This document shows positions 45,221 through 51,677 of a DNA stretch of 64,000 bases, piece after piece. This DNA is from Pseudomonadota bacterium (GTDB lineage: Bacteria; Myxococcota_A; UBA796; GCA-2862545), in NCBI GenBank assembly GCA_023954855.1, contig JAGSGY010000010.1:1-64000 (forward strand), read 5' to 3'. Made by a program: the position numbers and the translations under genes. Positions within the stretch are counted from its first letter, which is position 1, and each line of letters begins with the position of its first letter. The notes below the pieces were generated by a model, which was given only the letters and a program-made list of their open reading frames with translations, was not told where the DNA came from and made no database searches.

Positions 45221-46014
45221 AGGCCGCTGCTCGCCTGTTCACACTGCTTCTACTGCTCTCGTGTGGTCCCAAGCCGCCACCGAAGGCGCCTGAGACCGAT
45301 GTGTCAGCCACCCTCGAGATGGCTCGTGCGCGTCCGGCTCCGGAGCGTGCTCAAGCGCGGTTCACCATCAAGCTTCGCAGCAAGCCGCTCGAGCTCGCGG
45401 GGACCACCGGTGGTGGACTCGTCGTCGACCGGCCCGGCCGACTGCACATCGAGATCTTCGGTCCTCTCGGCTCGTCCTTGCTCAAGGTCACCAGCGATGG
45501 CGAGGCCCTCGGTGTACTGCTGCCCAAGGAAGAGCGGCAGTTGCTTGCCCCGTCGGCGGACGAAGCTCTGCTCGAGATGAGTGGGGGCACACTGAGCCTC
45601 GACGATCTGGCGGGCGTATTGCTTGGAGACCTTCCTTTCGATGTGGCCGAGGTCAAGGCCTCACGCGTGCTCGAGGATGGCAGCCATCAGCTCGACCTTG
45701 AGGCCCAGGGCGTGAGCGTCCAGGCTGATCTCGACCCGGCGACGGGCACGCCGAAGCACCTGGTGGCCACCGACGGGGATGGCGTGATGATGGTGGAGGC
45801 CACCTATGGTCCCTTCACCGAGATCGACGGACTGCTCTGGCCGAGCGAGGTCAAGCTCTTCCTGCCAGCTGTCGACCTGACCACATCGCTGCGCTTCAAG
45901 GGCTGGAAGTCAGTGGACGAGGCACCCCCGGTCTTCGACCTCACGCCTCCGGAGGGCTTCCTCACCGAAGACCTTCAAGAGGCCCTCAAGGGCCTCAAGC
46001 CGCTCGAGGACTAG
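45217..46014 (+). CDS. LolB/DUF4292-like lipoprotein
   Basis: A 265-residue lipoprotein with lipobox LLLSC. The body has the strand order and motifs of a LolA/LolB half-barrel: ARFTIKLRSKPLELAG, then GLVVDRPGRLHIEIFGPLG, and LLAPSADEALLEM, ending with LDLTPP-like DLTPPEGF. LolB receives lipoproteins at the outer membrane, and DUF4292 proteins are relatives; housekeeping LolB identity is not certain. The start is TTG at 45217 with GGAGGG just upstream, and it overlaps the TGA of the TPR lipoprotein (TTGA). The TAG shares CTAG with recJ. Confidence 0.72.
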   Translation: MKAAARLFTLLLLLSCGPKPPPKAPETDVSATLEMARARPAPERAQARFTIKLRSKPLELAGTTGGGLVVDRPGRLHIEIFGPLGSSLLKVTSDGEALGVLLPKEERQLLAPSADEALLEMSGGTLSLDDLAGVLLGDLPFDVAEVKASRVLEDGSHQLDLEAQGVSVQADLDPATGTPKHLVATDGDGVMMVEATYGPFTEIDGLLWPSEVKLFLPAVDLTTSLRFKGWKSVDEAPPVFDLTPPEGFLTEDLQEALKGLKPLED

Positions 46015-47711
46015 GACGCGTCGCTGATCACGAGCTGAAGTCGACGCCGGCCATTCCAGGTGTCGATCTCGAGCTTTCCGAGCAGATCGACCGGGCCTTC
46101 TTCGAGGCGCGCCTTGTGCTCGGCACCGTCCCACCAGATGGCATCCACCTTGGTGCCGCCGATGCGGCACTTGAGCAGGCGACCGTTCGCGCGGATGTCG
46201 ATGTACCTGGCCTGCACGCCACGCACGGCCAGCCGCGGACGGGGGTTGCCCATTCCAAAGGGTCCCAGCGAGGAAAGGTCGTGCTCGAGGCTCTCGTTGA
46301 GATCACGGGGGTCCACGTCGGCGTCGTAGCGGTAGCGGCGGACCAGGTCGTCGGACGGGGTGGTCTCACGGACGTAGGTGGAGAGCCGTTCTCCGAGTTC
46401 TTCGAGCTTGTCCGTGGGGACCGTGAAGCCCGCTGCGGCGGGGTGGCCTCCGTACCGGACCAGGATGTCCTGCACGCTGTCGAGGGCCTCGACTGCGTGG
46501 ACGCCGGGAATCGAGCGGATGCTACCGACCGCCTGCTCTCCCTGGATGCTGACGACGGCGGCGGGACGATAGACCTCGTCCTTGAGTCGAGAAGCGACGA
46601 TGCCGACGACGCCTCGGTGCCAGCCTGCCTCTTCGGTGCCGGAGACCACCACGAAGTCCGGTGGGTCGTCGCCGGCCTGCGCGATGGCGGCATCGACGAG
46701 ACGACGCTGGATCTCCTTGCGCTCGGTGTTGAGCTGATCGATCTCCTGGGCCATCGCCCGGGCGCGCTCGGGGTCGCGACAGTTCATCAGCTCGACGACC
46801 ATCTTCGCGTCCGCCAGGCGGCCGGCAGCATTGATGCGCGGACCAATTCGAAATCCGAGGTCACTCTCGCGGATCTCGCCGAGCTTGAGCGCCGAGGCAG
46901 TGAGCAGGGCCTGCAGTCCGGGGTGGTGCGGCCCGCGGTTGAGCATGTCGAGCCCGAGGGCGACGATGGCGCGGTTCTCGAGAGTGGTCAGGGGCACCAG
47001 GTCGGCGACGGTGCCGATCGCGGCGAGCTTGAGCATCGACCGAACAATGGCGTCGCGCTTTGGGTGCTTGGCGAGCAATCCCTGTGCGAGCTTCAGGCTG
47101 ACGCCGCAGGCTGCGAGGCTGCGGTTCGGGTAGCTGCACAGTCGCTGGGGCGGGCAGAGGACCAAGGCATCAGCCGGAACATCGGCGCCGTCAGGAAGGT
47201 GGTGATCACAGATCAAGACGTCCACGCCGCCATTCTTCGCGAGCGTGACCGCCGCGTGATCACGCACCCCAATATCGGCGGTGACGATGAGATCGATTCC
47301 GTCGGCGACGGCCTTTTCGGCGGCCTGGACCGAGAATCCGTAGCCCTCTTTGAAGCGATTGGGAATGTGGTAGTCGATCTGGGTGCCGCCGCCGGCCAGG
47401 GTGAGCCCGGCCTGCAAGATCAGCGACGAGGTGGTTCCATCGACGTCGTAGTCGGTGATGATTCGGACCTTCTGCCGGTCGCGATTTGCTTGCTCGAGGC
47501 GGGCGAGCGCGGGCGCCATGTTGTGCATGAGCGCGGGGTCGTGAAGGTGCTCGAAGCGTGGCGTGAGCAGGTCATCGGCTGAGCCCGTCTTCCAGCGAGA
47601 GGCGAGGCAGCGGGCCGCGACTGGGGAAAGTCCGCTCGCGAGGAGGGCCTCGACGCGCGCAGCAGGGGCGTCGGCGAGCAGCCAGGTCGCCCCGCTTAGG
47701 GAGGTCGTCAT
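46011..47711 (-). CDS. recJ: Single-stranded-DNA-specific exonuclease RecJ
   Basis: A 566-residue RecJ, a 5'-3' single-strand exonuclease in recombination and mismatch repair. Metal-binding motifs: D87 and D89 in TDYDVDGTTS, then TADIG, DHH at 169-171, and the DHHA1 part with GWHRGVVGIVASRL and GGHPAAAGF. Length is typical. It is preceded on the same strand by the MglA-like gene, 28 bases away. Confidence 0.95.
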   Translation of the reverse strand: MTTSLSGATWLLADAPAARVEALLASGLSPVAARCLASRWKTGSADDLLTPRFEHLHDPALMHNMAPALARLEQANRDRQKVRIITDYDVDGTTSSLILQAGLTLAGGGTQIDYHIPNRFKEGYGFSVQAAEKAVADGIDLIVTADIGVRDHAAVTLAKNGGVDVLICDHHLPDGADVPADALVLCPPQRLCSYPNRSLAACGVSLKLAQGLLAKHPKRDAIVRSMLKLAAIGTVADLVPLTTLENRAIVALGLDMLNRGPHHPGLQALLTASALKLGEIRESDLGFRIGPRINAAGRLADAKMVVELMNCRDPERARAMAQEIDQLNTERKEIQRRLVDAAIAQAGDDPPDFVVVSGTEEAGWHRGVVGIVASRLKDEVYRPAAVVSIQGEQAVGSIRSIPGVHAVEALDSVQDILVRYGGHPAAAGFTVPTDKLEELGERLSTYVRETTPSDDLVRRYRYDADVDPRDLNESLEHDLSSLGPFGMGNPRPRLAVRGVQARYIDIRANGRLLKCRIGGTKVDAIWWDGAEHKARLEEGPVDLLGKLEIDTWNGRRRLQLVISDAS

Positions 47712-47739: not shown

Positions 47740-48870
47740 TCAGTACCAGAACAAGAAGCCTAACAAGAGCCCCGCGAGCAGGCCGCCCACCAGGCCGGCG
47801 ATGCCCACCCAGATCGAGATGTCGGATCCCTCTGGCTCCTCCTGGCGCATCTGGGAGGGCAGCTCGATCTTATCTGGGAGGGACGCGGTCGCTGGCGAGG
47901 CGTTCAGCACCGGTGCGGGGGTGTGCGACGAGGTGACGGGCGCGGGTAGGGGGGCGACGTCCGTCGGGCGGTTGATCAACACGAGCGGGAGGAGCTTGGG
48001 CTGACCACCGCTGATCCGCTCCATGACGACATCCATGACGATGCGGTCTCCCTCCATGTGCACGCCACGGACTTCAGCCGGTCGCATGCCCAGGAACTCG
48101 CGCGGCTGGAACGGCAGCTCGTACTCATCCCCGCGGTGCAGCGTGTCGAAGTCTCCGGTGGCCTGTGTCTGATGCTCGGCGTGGGCGATGGCCTCGATGT
48201 GGCGCTGAATGATGTCTTCGTCGCGATCGCGGGTGGCGCGGTGTACGGCCGTGAGCGTGATCGAGGTCTCGCTGCCGGAGAGGTTGTCGCGAATGCGACT
48301 AACCGTGACACCGACGATCTTCTTATGGGTCTGGCCGACGCCAATCGCATCTTTGGCGACGGCTTCGGTGACGGGAAAACCGTAGGGATTCAGGTCGTAG
48401 ACCACCTTCTCGCTCGGCGCGGCGTTGGGGTCGTCGGTGTGGTTGACCTGCAGGACCATGGGCAGCGAGGCCATCTCGATGCCTTGCTCGGCAAGCGCTC
48501 GCTCGAGTTCGAGCAGCGCGTCGACGTTGACCTGGTCCTTTCCGGGGCGCGCATCGGCGATGAACACGATGGCGTCAGTGCCCTTGAGCACCTCTTCGCG
48601 ATGAATCGGGTGCAGCAGACCGCCGGGCATCGAGTAGACGCGGAAGCGCGTCGAGAAGCCAGTGATCGGTGCGGTGCCCTCGGGCACGTAGTCGAAGTAC
48701 CTGGTTCGCTCGGCTTCTTCGCCAGGTCCGAACTCGTGCAGTCGGCTGCGTTCTCCGGCGCGCACGGTCTCGTGCAACACCTGAAGATTGGTGTTCGTGC
48801 CTGCGCCAGGGGCGCCGAAGTAGACCACCTTGGCGGTGATCTCACGATGTGCGAAGTTGATGAGGGCCAT
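47740..48870 (-). CDS. Membrane-anchored MglA-like protein with degenerate GTP-binding site
   Basis: A 376-residue protein. Residues 1-~200 match the MglA/gliding Ras-like GTPase family along the chain (FAHREITAKVVYFG, FDYVPEGTAPITGF, STRFRVYSMPGG, GTDAIVFIADA, PMVLQVNHTDDPNA). However, the P-loop reads GAPGAGTNTN where MglA has GPGLCGKTTN, so the phosphate-binding Lys is Thr25 and the Mg-binding Thr is Asn26, and the base-recognition NKxD is NHTD at 143-146. A linker and a C-terminal membrane anchor (~353-376) follow. It may be a nucleotide-free pseudo-GTPase that docks polarity or motility partners at the membrane. Start at 48870 begins the G domain. Confidence 0.82.
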   Translation of the reverse strand: MALINFAHREITAKVVYFGAPGAGTNTNLQVLHETVRAGERSRLHEFGPGEEAERTRYFDYVPEGTAPITGFSTRFRVYSMPGGLLHPIHREEVLKGTDAIVFIADARPGKDQVNVDALLELERALAEQGIEMASLPMVLQVNHTDDPNAAPSEKVVYDLNPYGFPVTEAVAKDAIGVGQTHKKIVGVTVSRIRDNLSGSETSITLTAVHRATRDRDEDIIQRHIEAIAHAEHQTQATGDFDTLHRGDEYELPFQPREFLGMRPAEVRGVHMEGDRIVMDVVMERISGGQPKLLPLVLINRPTDVAPLPAPVTSSHTPAPVLNASPATASLPDKIELPSQMRQEEPEGSDISIWVGIAGLVGGLLAGLLLGFLFWY

Positions 48871-48952: not shown

Positions 48953-49810
48953 GTGAAGCCACTCATCGGACCGTTCGAGGTCCCCATCTTCCGCATCCCC
49001 CTCCCCGACTTCCTTCCGTGGGAAGAGGCGCCGATTCACGGCTTCGGGATTCTCGTCGCTCTGGGCTTCTTGCTCGGCGGCAACGTGGCCATGAAGGCCG
49101 CGGAGCGTCGGGGCATGGATCCCGAGGTCATCAACCGCCTGATTGGCTGGCTGATCGCGGGTACCTTCATCGGCGGTCACGTCGGCTACGGCCTGATGTA
49201 CAAGCCCGACGAGTACCTCGCCGACCCGATTCAGTTCCTGTACATGTGGCAGGGCCTGTCCAGCTACGGCGGCTTTGTGGCCTGTGTGCCGATCGCGATC
49301 TGGTTCTTCAAGCGCGAGGGCGTGCCGCTCTGGCCCTACGTCGACTCGGTGGCCATTGGCCTGACGCTCGGCTGGTTCTTCGGGCGCATGGGTTGCTTCG
49401 TGGCGCACGATCATCCGGGAAGCCCGACGGAATTCGCCCTGGGCGTCTACGGCATCTGCCTCAACGAGGGTCCGAGCGTGGCTTGCCACGACATGGGCCT
49501 TTACGAGGCGATCTGGTCATTCGCGATGTTCGTGATCTTCATGGCTATGGACCGCGTGCCACGCACCCCGGGCATCTACGCAGGCATCCTGGCGGCAGCC
49601 TACGCCCCGGTTCGCTTCGGCATGGACTTCCTGCGTCCCTTCAACCACGACCCCCGCTACCTCGGCCTCACGCCGGCGCAGTGGTGGTGCTTCGCGTTCT
49701 TCGCGCTCGGCGTCTACGTCGTCGTGGTGCGCGTTCGCAGTGGTGATGCGCCCGTGTGGAAGACCGAAGGCGAAGACGACGCTCCGACCGACGAGGCCAC
49801 AGCCTCCTAG
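48953..49810 (+). CDS. lgt: Prolipoprotein diacylglyceryl transferase
   Basis: A 285-residue inner-membrane Lgt, which attaches diacylglycerol to the lipobox cysteine as the first lipoprotein maturation step. The seven-helix topology and Lgt signature are present: HGFGILVALGFLLGG near the start and FFGRMGCFVAHDHPGSPT (GRxGCF with the conserved Arg and His/Gly) at ~145-162, then AAAYAPVRFGMDFLR with the conserved Arg. Start is GTG at 48953 with AAGGAG upstream. It is divergent from the MglA-like gene over 82 bases, and its stop shares CTAG with the opposed nucleotidyltransferase. Confidence 0.94.
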   Translation: MKPLIGPFEVPIFRIPLPDFLPWEEAPIHGFGILVALGFLLGGNVAMKAAERRGMDPEVINRLIGWLIAGTFIGGHVGYGLMYKPDEYLADPIQFLYMWQGLSSYGGFVACVPIAIWFFKREGVPLWPYVDSVAIGLTLGWFFGRMGCFVAHDHPGSPTEFALGVYGICLNEGPSVACHDMGLYEAIWSFAMFVIFMAMDRVPRTPGIYAGILAAAYAPVRFGMDFLRPFNHDPRYLGLTPAQWWCFAFFALGVYVVVVRVRSGDAPVWKTEGEDDAPTDEATAS

Positions 49811-50559
49811 AGCTGCCCAAGCCGTGCCCGAACCAGCCAGTCCTCGATGTCGGCTGCGTTCGGCGCTTGCTCGGGGAGCTTGCTCGACGCGCGGGCCTCG
49901 GCGAGGTCCTTCGCGAGCCCGTCGAAGGCGGCCCGGTGATGCTCGTCGAGGGCTGCGGGCAGGGCGCACTTCTCGCCATGCTCGCGCTTGAAGGCGACGA
50001 GCTCGGTGACGTCCCGCCCGTACAGCGGAGCGAGGGTGTTCACGTTCGGCTCGATTGTGCCCGTCTTCAGCAGGTGCATACCCGTCAGAGCCACACGGTA
50101 GGCGTAGAGCGCGGTCTTTGCGCGCCGCTTGCTCGCGTGCTCACGGCGCATTCCCTTCAGGTAGCCGCTGTAGTGGCGGTAGCTCTGCAACGACACGCTC
50201 TGCTCTGCGAGCTGCCGGAGCTCCTCGGAACCGTTCACCAGCTGGAGTGGGCTTGTGAAGCGCTCCAGCATGTTGCCATTGCCGCGCAGTAGCAGGGACA
50301 GCGCGGTGCGGGCTTCATGGGTCGTCAGGTCGCACTCCACGTCCTCGAAGATCTCGAGCGCATCGTGCGCCTCGGTGGGTGCGTGCAACCCGAGCAGGTC
50401 GCGGGTCGGGGCCAGGTGCATGCCCTTGATGTCGAGGTCGCTGTCCTCGCTTGGAAAGCCGTAGATGTGGGCGCCGGTGACCGCACACTGCACGACGCGT
50501 CCTGGTGGGGGGCGGTGCTCGAGAAAGCGCCGGCAGATGTCGAGGTCGGGGATCAGCAT
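49807..50559 (-). CDS. RlaP-type (PF10127) nucleotidyltransferase, second of pair
   Basis: A 250-residue DNA-polymerase-beta-superfamily nucleotidyltransferase. The N-terminal catalytic motif is VTGAHIYGFPSEDSDLDIKG: a G-S/A loop followed by D-x-D with the conserved IKG. A third Asp is likely in the DVECDLTTHE strand. The C-terminal two-thirds is helical. RlaP (RNA-ligase-associated polymerase-beta) proteins have been linked by comparative genomics to RNA repair, but no RNA ligase is present here. The first codon overlaps the end of the upstream paralogue by seven bases. Confidence 0.85.
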   Translation of the reverse strand: MLIPDLDICRRFLEHRPPPGRVVQCAVTGAHIYGFPSEDSDLDIKGMHLAPTRDLLGLHAPTEAHDALEIFEDVECDLTTHEARTALSLLLRGNGNMLERFTSPLQLVNGSEELRQLAEQSVSLQSYRHYSGYLKGMRREHASKRRAKTALYAYRVALTGMHLLKTGTIEPNVNTLAPLYGRDVTELVAFKREHGEKCALPAALDEHHRAAFDGLAKDLAEARASSKLPEQAPNAADIEDWLVRARLGQL

Positions 50560-51677
50560 CCGAGGGCCTGCTCGACGAGGGAGACGCACAGGGCGTCGAT
50601 GGCCGCGCGGTCGGGTCGCTCGGGAACGGCGAAGTCGGCGGTCTTCAGGCCGCGTAATTGCTTCATCGCGGCGTCTGACCACTCGATCAGTGCGTCGTAG
50701 GACCAGGCTCCAGCTCGGATCGCGCGCAGCTCGTCGCCGTCGATGTCGCCCCTCCAGACGATGCACTGGCCGGTCTGGGCGATCTCCACGCCCATGCGGA
50801 GCAGGCGAACCAAGTGGGCGCCGTGCTTGGTGTCGTACCCAAACTCGGCCTCGAGGGCGGCGCGATCGGGGTTTCGGTTCCGCTTCCAGCCTTGGTACTT
50901 GCGCCACTCATCGCGCGCGCTCTGGTAGCGGCGCTCGCGCTTCATCACCTCGACCAGGTGGTCGTCGAGGCCCACCCACCGGGCACCGGCATCCCACAAG
51001 GCGTCATCCGAGGCGAGGCGAAGCTCGGTGAGGGTGATGGCGATGCGGTCGTGCACCTTCACGCGCTCTGCGGCGTCGAGCTCCGACAGATCGAGTTCCC
51101 AGCGGTCGAGCTGCTTCTGTACGGCGGCTGCGGCGGCTTCGTAGTGGCTCTTCGGAATCAGCGCGACCTCGGGCAGTCCGAAGTCCGAGCGGGTGGGGGC
51201 GCTCTCTTTGCCGTGGTGGTGCCAGCGGTAGTGAAGGCGAATGCGTGACAGCTGCTGGTTCGCGTAGCCTGCGAAGGTGTGCACGCACTTTGCGGAAAGA
51301 AACAGCTCACGCTGGTCGCGAAGCTGCTCTCCGAGGGGCGTGGCGAGGCGAAGCTCCTCGTCCCGACAGAACAACGACTCGAGCACATTGGGGTTCGCCG
51401 AAGTGGCGAGGGTCACGAACTTGCGTAGGTCGTAGACGCTTCCCTCAAGTCCGGTGCGGCCGGCGATGGCCAGCTCGTCCGCGTTCAAGTCTTCGACGAA
51501 GACATCGAACTGCGAGGCGTCATCGGCCTGCTCGAAGCGGTGGGCCACCCCGTGAAAGTAGCGGGCGGGCGGAATCGCCATGCCCTTGAGGTCGATGTCC
51601 GAGGCATCGGTGTGAAGGCCATGAGCGCGGCTTCCGGCGATCGTCAGCAAGTGGGTGTGCGCGCGCAGATCGAACAA
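50553..51677 (-). CDS. RlaP-type (PF10127) nucleotidyltransferase, first of pair
   Basis: A 374-residue paralogue of the next gene, with the same N-terminal fold (IAGSRAHGLHTDASDIDLKG, where GSRAHG and D-x-D are the catalytic loop and metal ligands) and a third Asp in QFDVFVED. It carries a longer helical C-terminal part with many conserved-looking Arg, His and Trp residues (for example HYRWHHHG and WRKYQGWKRNRNP), possibly for nucleic-acid contact. The start is TTG at 51675-51677 with GAGG upstream. It is divergent from the acyl-CoA operon. Confidence 0.85.
   Translation of the reverse strand: MFDLRAHTHLLTIAGSRAHGLHTDASDIDLKGMAIPPARYFHGVAHRFEQADDASQFDVFVEDLNADELAIAGRTGLEGSVYDLRKFVTLATSANPNVLESLFCRDEELRLATPLGEQLRDQRELFLSAKCVHTFAGYANQQLSRIRLHYRWHHHGKESAPTRSDFGLPEVALIPKSHYEAAAAAVQKQLDRWELDLSELDAAERVKVHDRIAITLTELRLASDDALWDAGARWVGLDDHLVEVMKRERRYQSARDEWRKYQGWKRNRNPDRAALEAEFGYDTKHGAHLVRLLRMGVEIAQTGQCIVWRGDIDGDELRAIRAGAWSYDALIEWSDAAMKQLRGLKTADFAVPERPDRAAIDALCVSLVEQALGC

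Follow-up and report, generated by a model that had tools for sequence, protein, structure and literature searches.

Gene organization between lgt and recJ

The window, i.e., the whole stretch of 64,000 nucleotides that was analyzed, carries on its minus strand (47740..48870) a gene for a predicted tail-anchored MglA-like pseudo-GTPase of 376 amino acids plus stop, recognized by its open reading frame, MglA homology and orthologs. The frame runs from an ATG at 48870 to a stop codon at 47740-47742, and these coordinates are exact: the start codon is backed by the alignment of M1 with M1 of MglA and by the N-termini of orthologs, which read MA-x-[IL]-N-F or similar. Co-directional recJ (46011..47711, minus strand) follows 28 bp downstream and is part of a conserved locus. 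On the other side lies lgt (48953..49810, plus strand), which codes for prolipoprotein diacylglyceryl transferase; this divergent neighbor is also conserved, with 82 bp between the two starts. Beyond it, two adjoining, overlapping minus-strand ORFs (49807-51677) with GSRAHG- and GAHIYG-type motifs have a nucleotidyltransferase-type look.

A degenerate MglA-type G domain

Residues 1-194 (48289..48870, minus strand) form a degenerate G domain. Solved MglA proteins matched this region in phmmer searches of PDB with E values of 9e-38 to 6e-35 and only small gaps, the best being T. thermophilus MglA (9e-38); M. xanthus MglA gave 5e-35 and is 36% identical. The collinearity with MglA proposed in the original prediction is thus borne out. 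Pfam and NCBIfam offered no useful family for the protein; the Pfam Arf model matches canonical orthologs, and in the two pseudo-GTPase orthologs tested it gave either no match or one below cut-off.

Three nucleotide motifs are altered. In the degenerate P-loop, G19-A-P-G-A-G24-T25-N26 (48793..48816, minus strand), Thr25 and Asn26 align to Lys25 and Thr26 of MglA, and the resulting GAPGAGTN departs from GxxxxGK[T/S]. The G3 segment S80-M-P-G-G84 (48619..48633, minus strand) replaces TVPGQ, with Gly84 at the position of the catalytic Gln (MglA Q82). In G4 (48433..48444, minus strand), N143-H-T-D146 lies on NKRD, so that H144 stands for K142 of MglA and the sequence falls outside [NT]KxD. The P-loop and G4 substitutions had been predicted from the window and agree with the alignment to MglA; the change of PGQ to PGG and the retention of Arg55-Thr56 are additional features. 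These two G2 residues (48703..48708, minus strand; MglA R53-T54) include the intrinsic arginine of group 1 proteins, and N143, D146 and both P-loop glycines are retained as well.

In M. xanthus MglA, the single substitutions K25A, T26N, Q82A/R and K142A fall on the same positions; with each of them, function in motility was lost and the protein was no longer detectable (PMC3000849). A retained protein altered at all four positions must therefore be stable in some other way.

C-terminal anchor and glycine zipper

The G domain is followed by a conserved helical extension (RDNLxG ... H224 ...; 48166..48288, minus strand), which is common to canonical orthologs of family f4, and by a small conserved segment of about residues 245-305 (47956..48138, minus strand), which is beta-strand-like in a low-confidence model; AlphaFold2 run with two sequences gave a mean pLDDT of 37.8 for the protein. 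The C-terminus is a predicted transmembrane helix (47752..47808, minus strand) with a glycine zipper, G359xxxG363xxxG367(xxxG371). The best 19-residue Kyte-Doolittle window scores 2.29 at residues 355-373, three residues from the end, and the next best 0.97. In all 20 orthologs from the family of the window, the only strong hydrophobic segment by hydropathy is likewise at the extreme C-terminus, 0-7 residues from the end, which upholds the earlier proposal of a C-terminal anchoring helix. Because the anchor is C-terminal and there is no signal peptide, the G domain is predicted to be cytoplasmic.

Glycines 359, 363 and 367 are invariant across the 20 orthologs. GxxxGxxxG occurs in all 20 anchors, compared with a mean of 2.6 and a maximum of 8 of 20 in 2000 shuffles, and also in 18 of the 20 canonical f4 orthologs that are complete. 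Such a pattern is usually a mark of helix-helix packing, and the anchor looks, from its sequence, built for self-association.

Conservation and phylogeny

The family of the window (f1) comprises 21 genomes in 14 genera, and f2, f3 and f4 are sister families in the same order. The pseudo-GTPase gene was found in 20 of the 21 genomes, the exception (G007) being 85% complete. In all 20 of these orthologs the Lys of the P-loop and that of NKxD are missing, as is the catalytic Gln, and the same losses throughout the family are far beyond chance. Position 25 is occupied by C (8), S (6), T (4), V (1) or L (1). G4 is mostly NHxD, with His144 in 15/20 and both Asn143 and Asp146 in 19/20; both P-loop glycines are retained in all 20, and the G2 Arg is only partly kept (10/20). 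GTPase homology is thus combined with missing nucleotide motifs, conserved in orthologs, as in pseudoGTPases defined by sequence. Sequences aligned from this locus in f2, f3 and f4 are canonical (GKTT, PGQ, NKRD). The view of the altered motifs as a conserved trait therefore stands for the family itself, where every copy shares them, and does not extend to the sister families, the only place where canonical motifs were seen.

In a G-domain tree of 74 rows, the 20 pseudo-GTPase sequences formed one clade (100/100), nested within a 100/99 clade with canonical f4 proteins and the protein of G004 (f2). The two canonical f3 proteins were placed outside this clade, so that locus and anchor are the grounds for treating them as orthologs. 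Branches in f1 are longer than those of canonical orthologs, the copy in G016 being very diverged, and owing to such long branches the inner placements are unsure.

In f1, f3 and f4 the gene sits between divergent lgt and recJ, often with a LolB-like gene next; a neighbor missing from the locus table may reflect a contig end or divergence of that neighbor. In f2, the G004 gene is near lgt and is cut short by the contig end, which leaves the anchor unseen, and G002 has no such gene beside lgt and recJ. In the seven genomes of f5 and f6 that were read, lgt and recJ are close together, and an MglA-like gene was not detected in the interval, which in some cases is filled by other ORFs.

Comparison of the window gene with that of its genus relative G001 (78% identity) by the Nei-Gojobori method gave dN/dS of 0.26 overall and 0.23 for the G domain, estimates that rest on this one pair; RecJ gave 0.23 for the same pair. 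RecJ of G001 has the opposite strand sign in the locus table and was taken from the minus strand of L033 for this comparison.

MglA/MglB partners, pili and flagella

The genome of the window is 97% complete. No second MglA-like match was found in it, and so no canonical MglA, and no Robl_LC7/MglB match, a coupled MglB being a feature of functional MglA. It should be noted that orphan MglAs exist and that a coupled MglB is not strictly defining. The pseudo-GTPase serves no detected MglA/MglB switch in this genome. Similarly, at the depth of this search a canonical MglA was not found in 16 of the 20 f1 genomes with the gene; G022, which is among the 16, gave a marginal extra MglA-like match (E 3.8e-4). 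The other four (G001, G011, G012, G020) contain a canonical soluble MglA, all with Robl_LC7 genes. Robl_LC7 was unmatched in 14 of the 21 f1 genomes, and its matches were also rare in sister-family genomes with canonical tail-anchored MglA.

PilM was above cut-off in 0 of 21 f1 genomes versus 35 of the 42 from elsewhere in the order. PilT was above cut-off in 45 of 63 genomes: the 42 outside f1 all had best E values of 1e-130 or stronger, and from the matches listed we infer that the other three are G008, G011 and G013 (~1e-104). Among the matches listed, PilT-family matches in f1 are few and mostly around 1e-50. The absence of PilM together with these mostly weak matches suggests that type IVa pili were largely lost in f1. 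In the genome of the window, where the best PilT-family match is 2e-52 and PilM and FliF were not detected, these markers point to the absence of flagella as well as of type IVa pili. We also considered a link between the gene and type IVa pili, which was rejected: no f1 genome has PilM above cut-off, but f5 and f6 keep pili without the gene, so the association amounts to one coincidence on the tree and is not a test.

Possible function of the pseudo-GTPase

Motifs, orthologs, clade and hydropathy together support a membrane-tethered, MglA-derived pseudo-GTPase, as originally proposed. Compared with group 1 MglA of M. xanthus and T. thermophilus, a Ras-superfamily polarity GTPase, it has a collinear G domain, the G2 Arg-Thr, the P-loop glycines and the G4 Asn and Asp, but lacks the P-loop Lys/Thr, the catalytic Gln and the NKxD Lys, adds about 180 residues that end in the transmembrane helix, and has no MglB detected in its genome. 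With the canonical tail-anchored MglA of sister families (for example L054 and L062 of f4, L068 of f3) it shares the lgt/recJ locus and the C-terminal helix and, in the case of f4, the glycine zipper and the extension after the G domain; these proteins differ in their intact GKTT, PGQ and NKRD and in a longer, often Pro-rich linker.

The reading that we consider somewhat probable is a nucleotide-independent, probably oligomeric membrane scaffold derived from such a GTPase. The ancestor would have been a tail-anchored orphan MglA-type GTPase, encoded between lgt and recJ across the order. In the f1 ancestor, K25 and T26 (the phosphate/Mg residues) would have been lost, as well as the Lys of G4 and the catalytic Gln, and the protein would since then have been retained as a pseudo-GTPase under ordinary purifying selection. 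The single C-terminal helix would hold the G-domain fold in the cytoplasm and could self-associate via the glycine zipper, giving a constitutive membrane platform whose retained surfaces may bind a partner once bound in a nucleotide-dependent manner by the ancestral GTPase. Such use of a GTPase fold as an interaction domain is known from the eukaryotic pseudoGTPases CENP-M, the p190RhoGAP pseudoGTPase domains and Rnd proteins, which have lost nucleotide binding or hydrolysis (PMC10211241, PMC5593906) and belong to a separate lineage; CENP-M is a precedent for a scaffold (PMC10211241). As for the wider proposal, that throughout f1 a Ras-like GTPase of the MglA type became a constitutive scaffold, oligomeric and membrane-bound, and that canonical orthologs persist at the sister-family locus, we regard the case as evenly balanced.

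Several other functions were weighed against this scaffold. Since Asn143, Asp146 and the P-loop glycines are conserved, weak or unusual guanine binding may still occur, and the protein could be a sensor without hydrolysis that holds a guanine ligand via the Asn/Asp of NHxD next to a remodeled phosphate site. The frequent His144 and the limitation of position 25 to small residues (Cys/Ser/Thr in 18/20) are in line with this idea; against it, the G4 Asn also makes structural contacts. According to the MglA classification (PMC4316618), the Lys of NKxD is often missing from groups 2 and 3, and CvnD9, a group 2 protein, shows GTPase activity, but in the present family the P-loop Lys and the adjacent Ser/Thr are changed too, and single changes of this kind left no detectable protein in M. 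xanthus (PMC3000849). On balance we consider such a sensor unlikely. A decaying relic left behind by the loss of type IVa pili would agree with the PilM and PilT-family results, the longer f1 branches and the diverged G016 copy, but the gene is intact in 20/21 genomes of 14 genera, its G domain evolves at a dN/dS of 0.23 and the zipper glycines are invariant, and, as seen in f5 and f6, the locus need not contain it; a functionless remnant appears quite improbable.

The original prediction had favored a fixed receptor or antagonist of the MglA/MglB polarity switch. An MglA-like fold on a membrane tether would suit that role, and four f1 genomes do carry canonical MglA and Robl_LC7 genes, but the genome of the window and most others of the family had no canonical MglA match, and two-thirds had no Robl_LC7 match. 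With neither MglA nor MglB detected in the genome of the window itself, this role was rejected there, and we would hardly expect it in the family. We think it very improbable, too, that the protein serves its neighbors directly, for instance by tethering RecJ or by helping to handle Lgt-dependent lipoproteins at the membrane. That the gene keeps its place between the two in f1, f3 and f4, with short gaps in the window, would fit, but housekeeping genes commonly show conserved order, lgt and recJ stay near each other in f5 and f6 without the gene, and RecJ is a soluble DNA repair enzyme, which counts against its tethering.

If the scaffold reading is true, the order would offer a before-and-after pair for a Ras-like switch becoming a structural protein. 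Depending on the family, this one locus encodes either a GTPase with intact motifs or a pseudo-GTPase, or has no detectable gene of the kind, which makes it testable which MglA-like function survives without a nucleotide switch and which membrane partner is bound. The locus is also a warning that MglA homology alone does not imply a GTP switch. Wuichet and Sogaard-Andersen, in classifying the MglA groups, noted that G4 varies in groups 2 and 3; the parts of their classification covered here do not describe a pseudo-GTPase of the present type (PMC4316618). A limited search of the open literature (without bioRxiv and most subscription papers) found no described MglA-type bacterial pseudo-GTPase or tail-anchored example, and the pseudoGTPase literature found concerns other proteins.

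Other MglA-like proteins

In f9, a family of the same class, the MglA-like proteins L076, L077 and L078 keep GKTT and NKRD, but where the catalytic PGQ would stand they read CPGA, CPGP or CPGS; these motifs suggest proteins that bind GTP and lack the usual catalytic Gln. L078, a complete copy, likewise ends in a transmembrane helix. Two diverged soluble proteins have altered P-loops, GAGKRS together with NHQD in L079 (G002, f2) and GAGRKT in L080 (G049, f5), possibly by independent motif loss. Outside the order, L073 and L074 (G063, f7), both canonical MglA-like proteins, carry a long C-terminal extension that ends in a transmembrane helix, and tail-anchored MglA may therefore predate the order.
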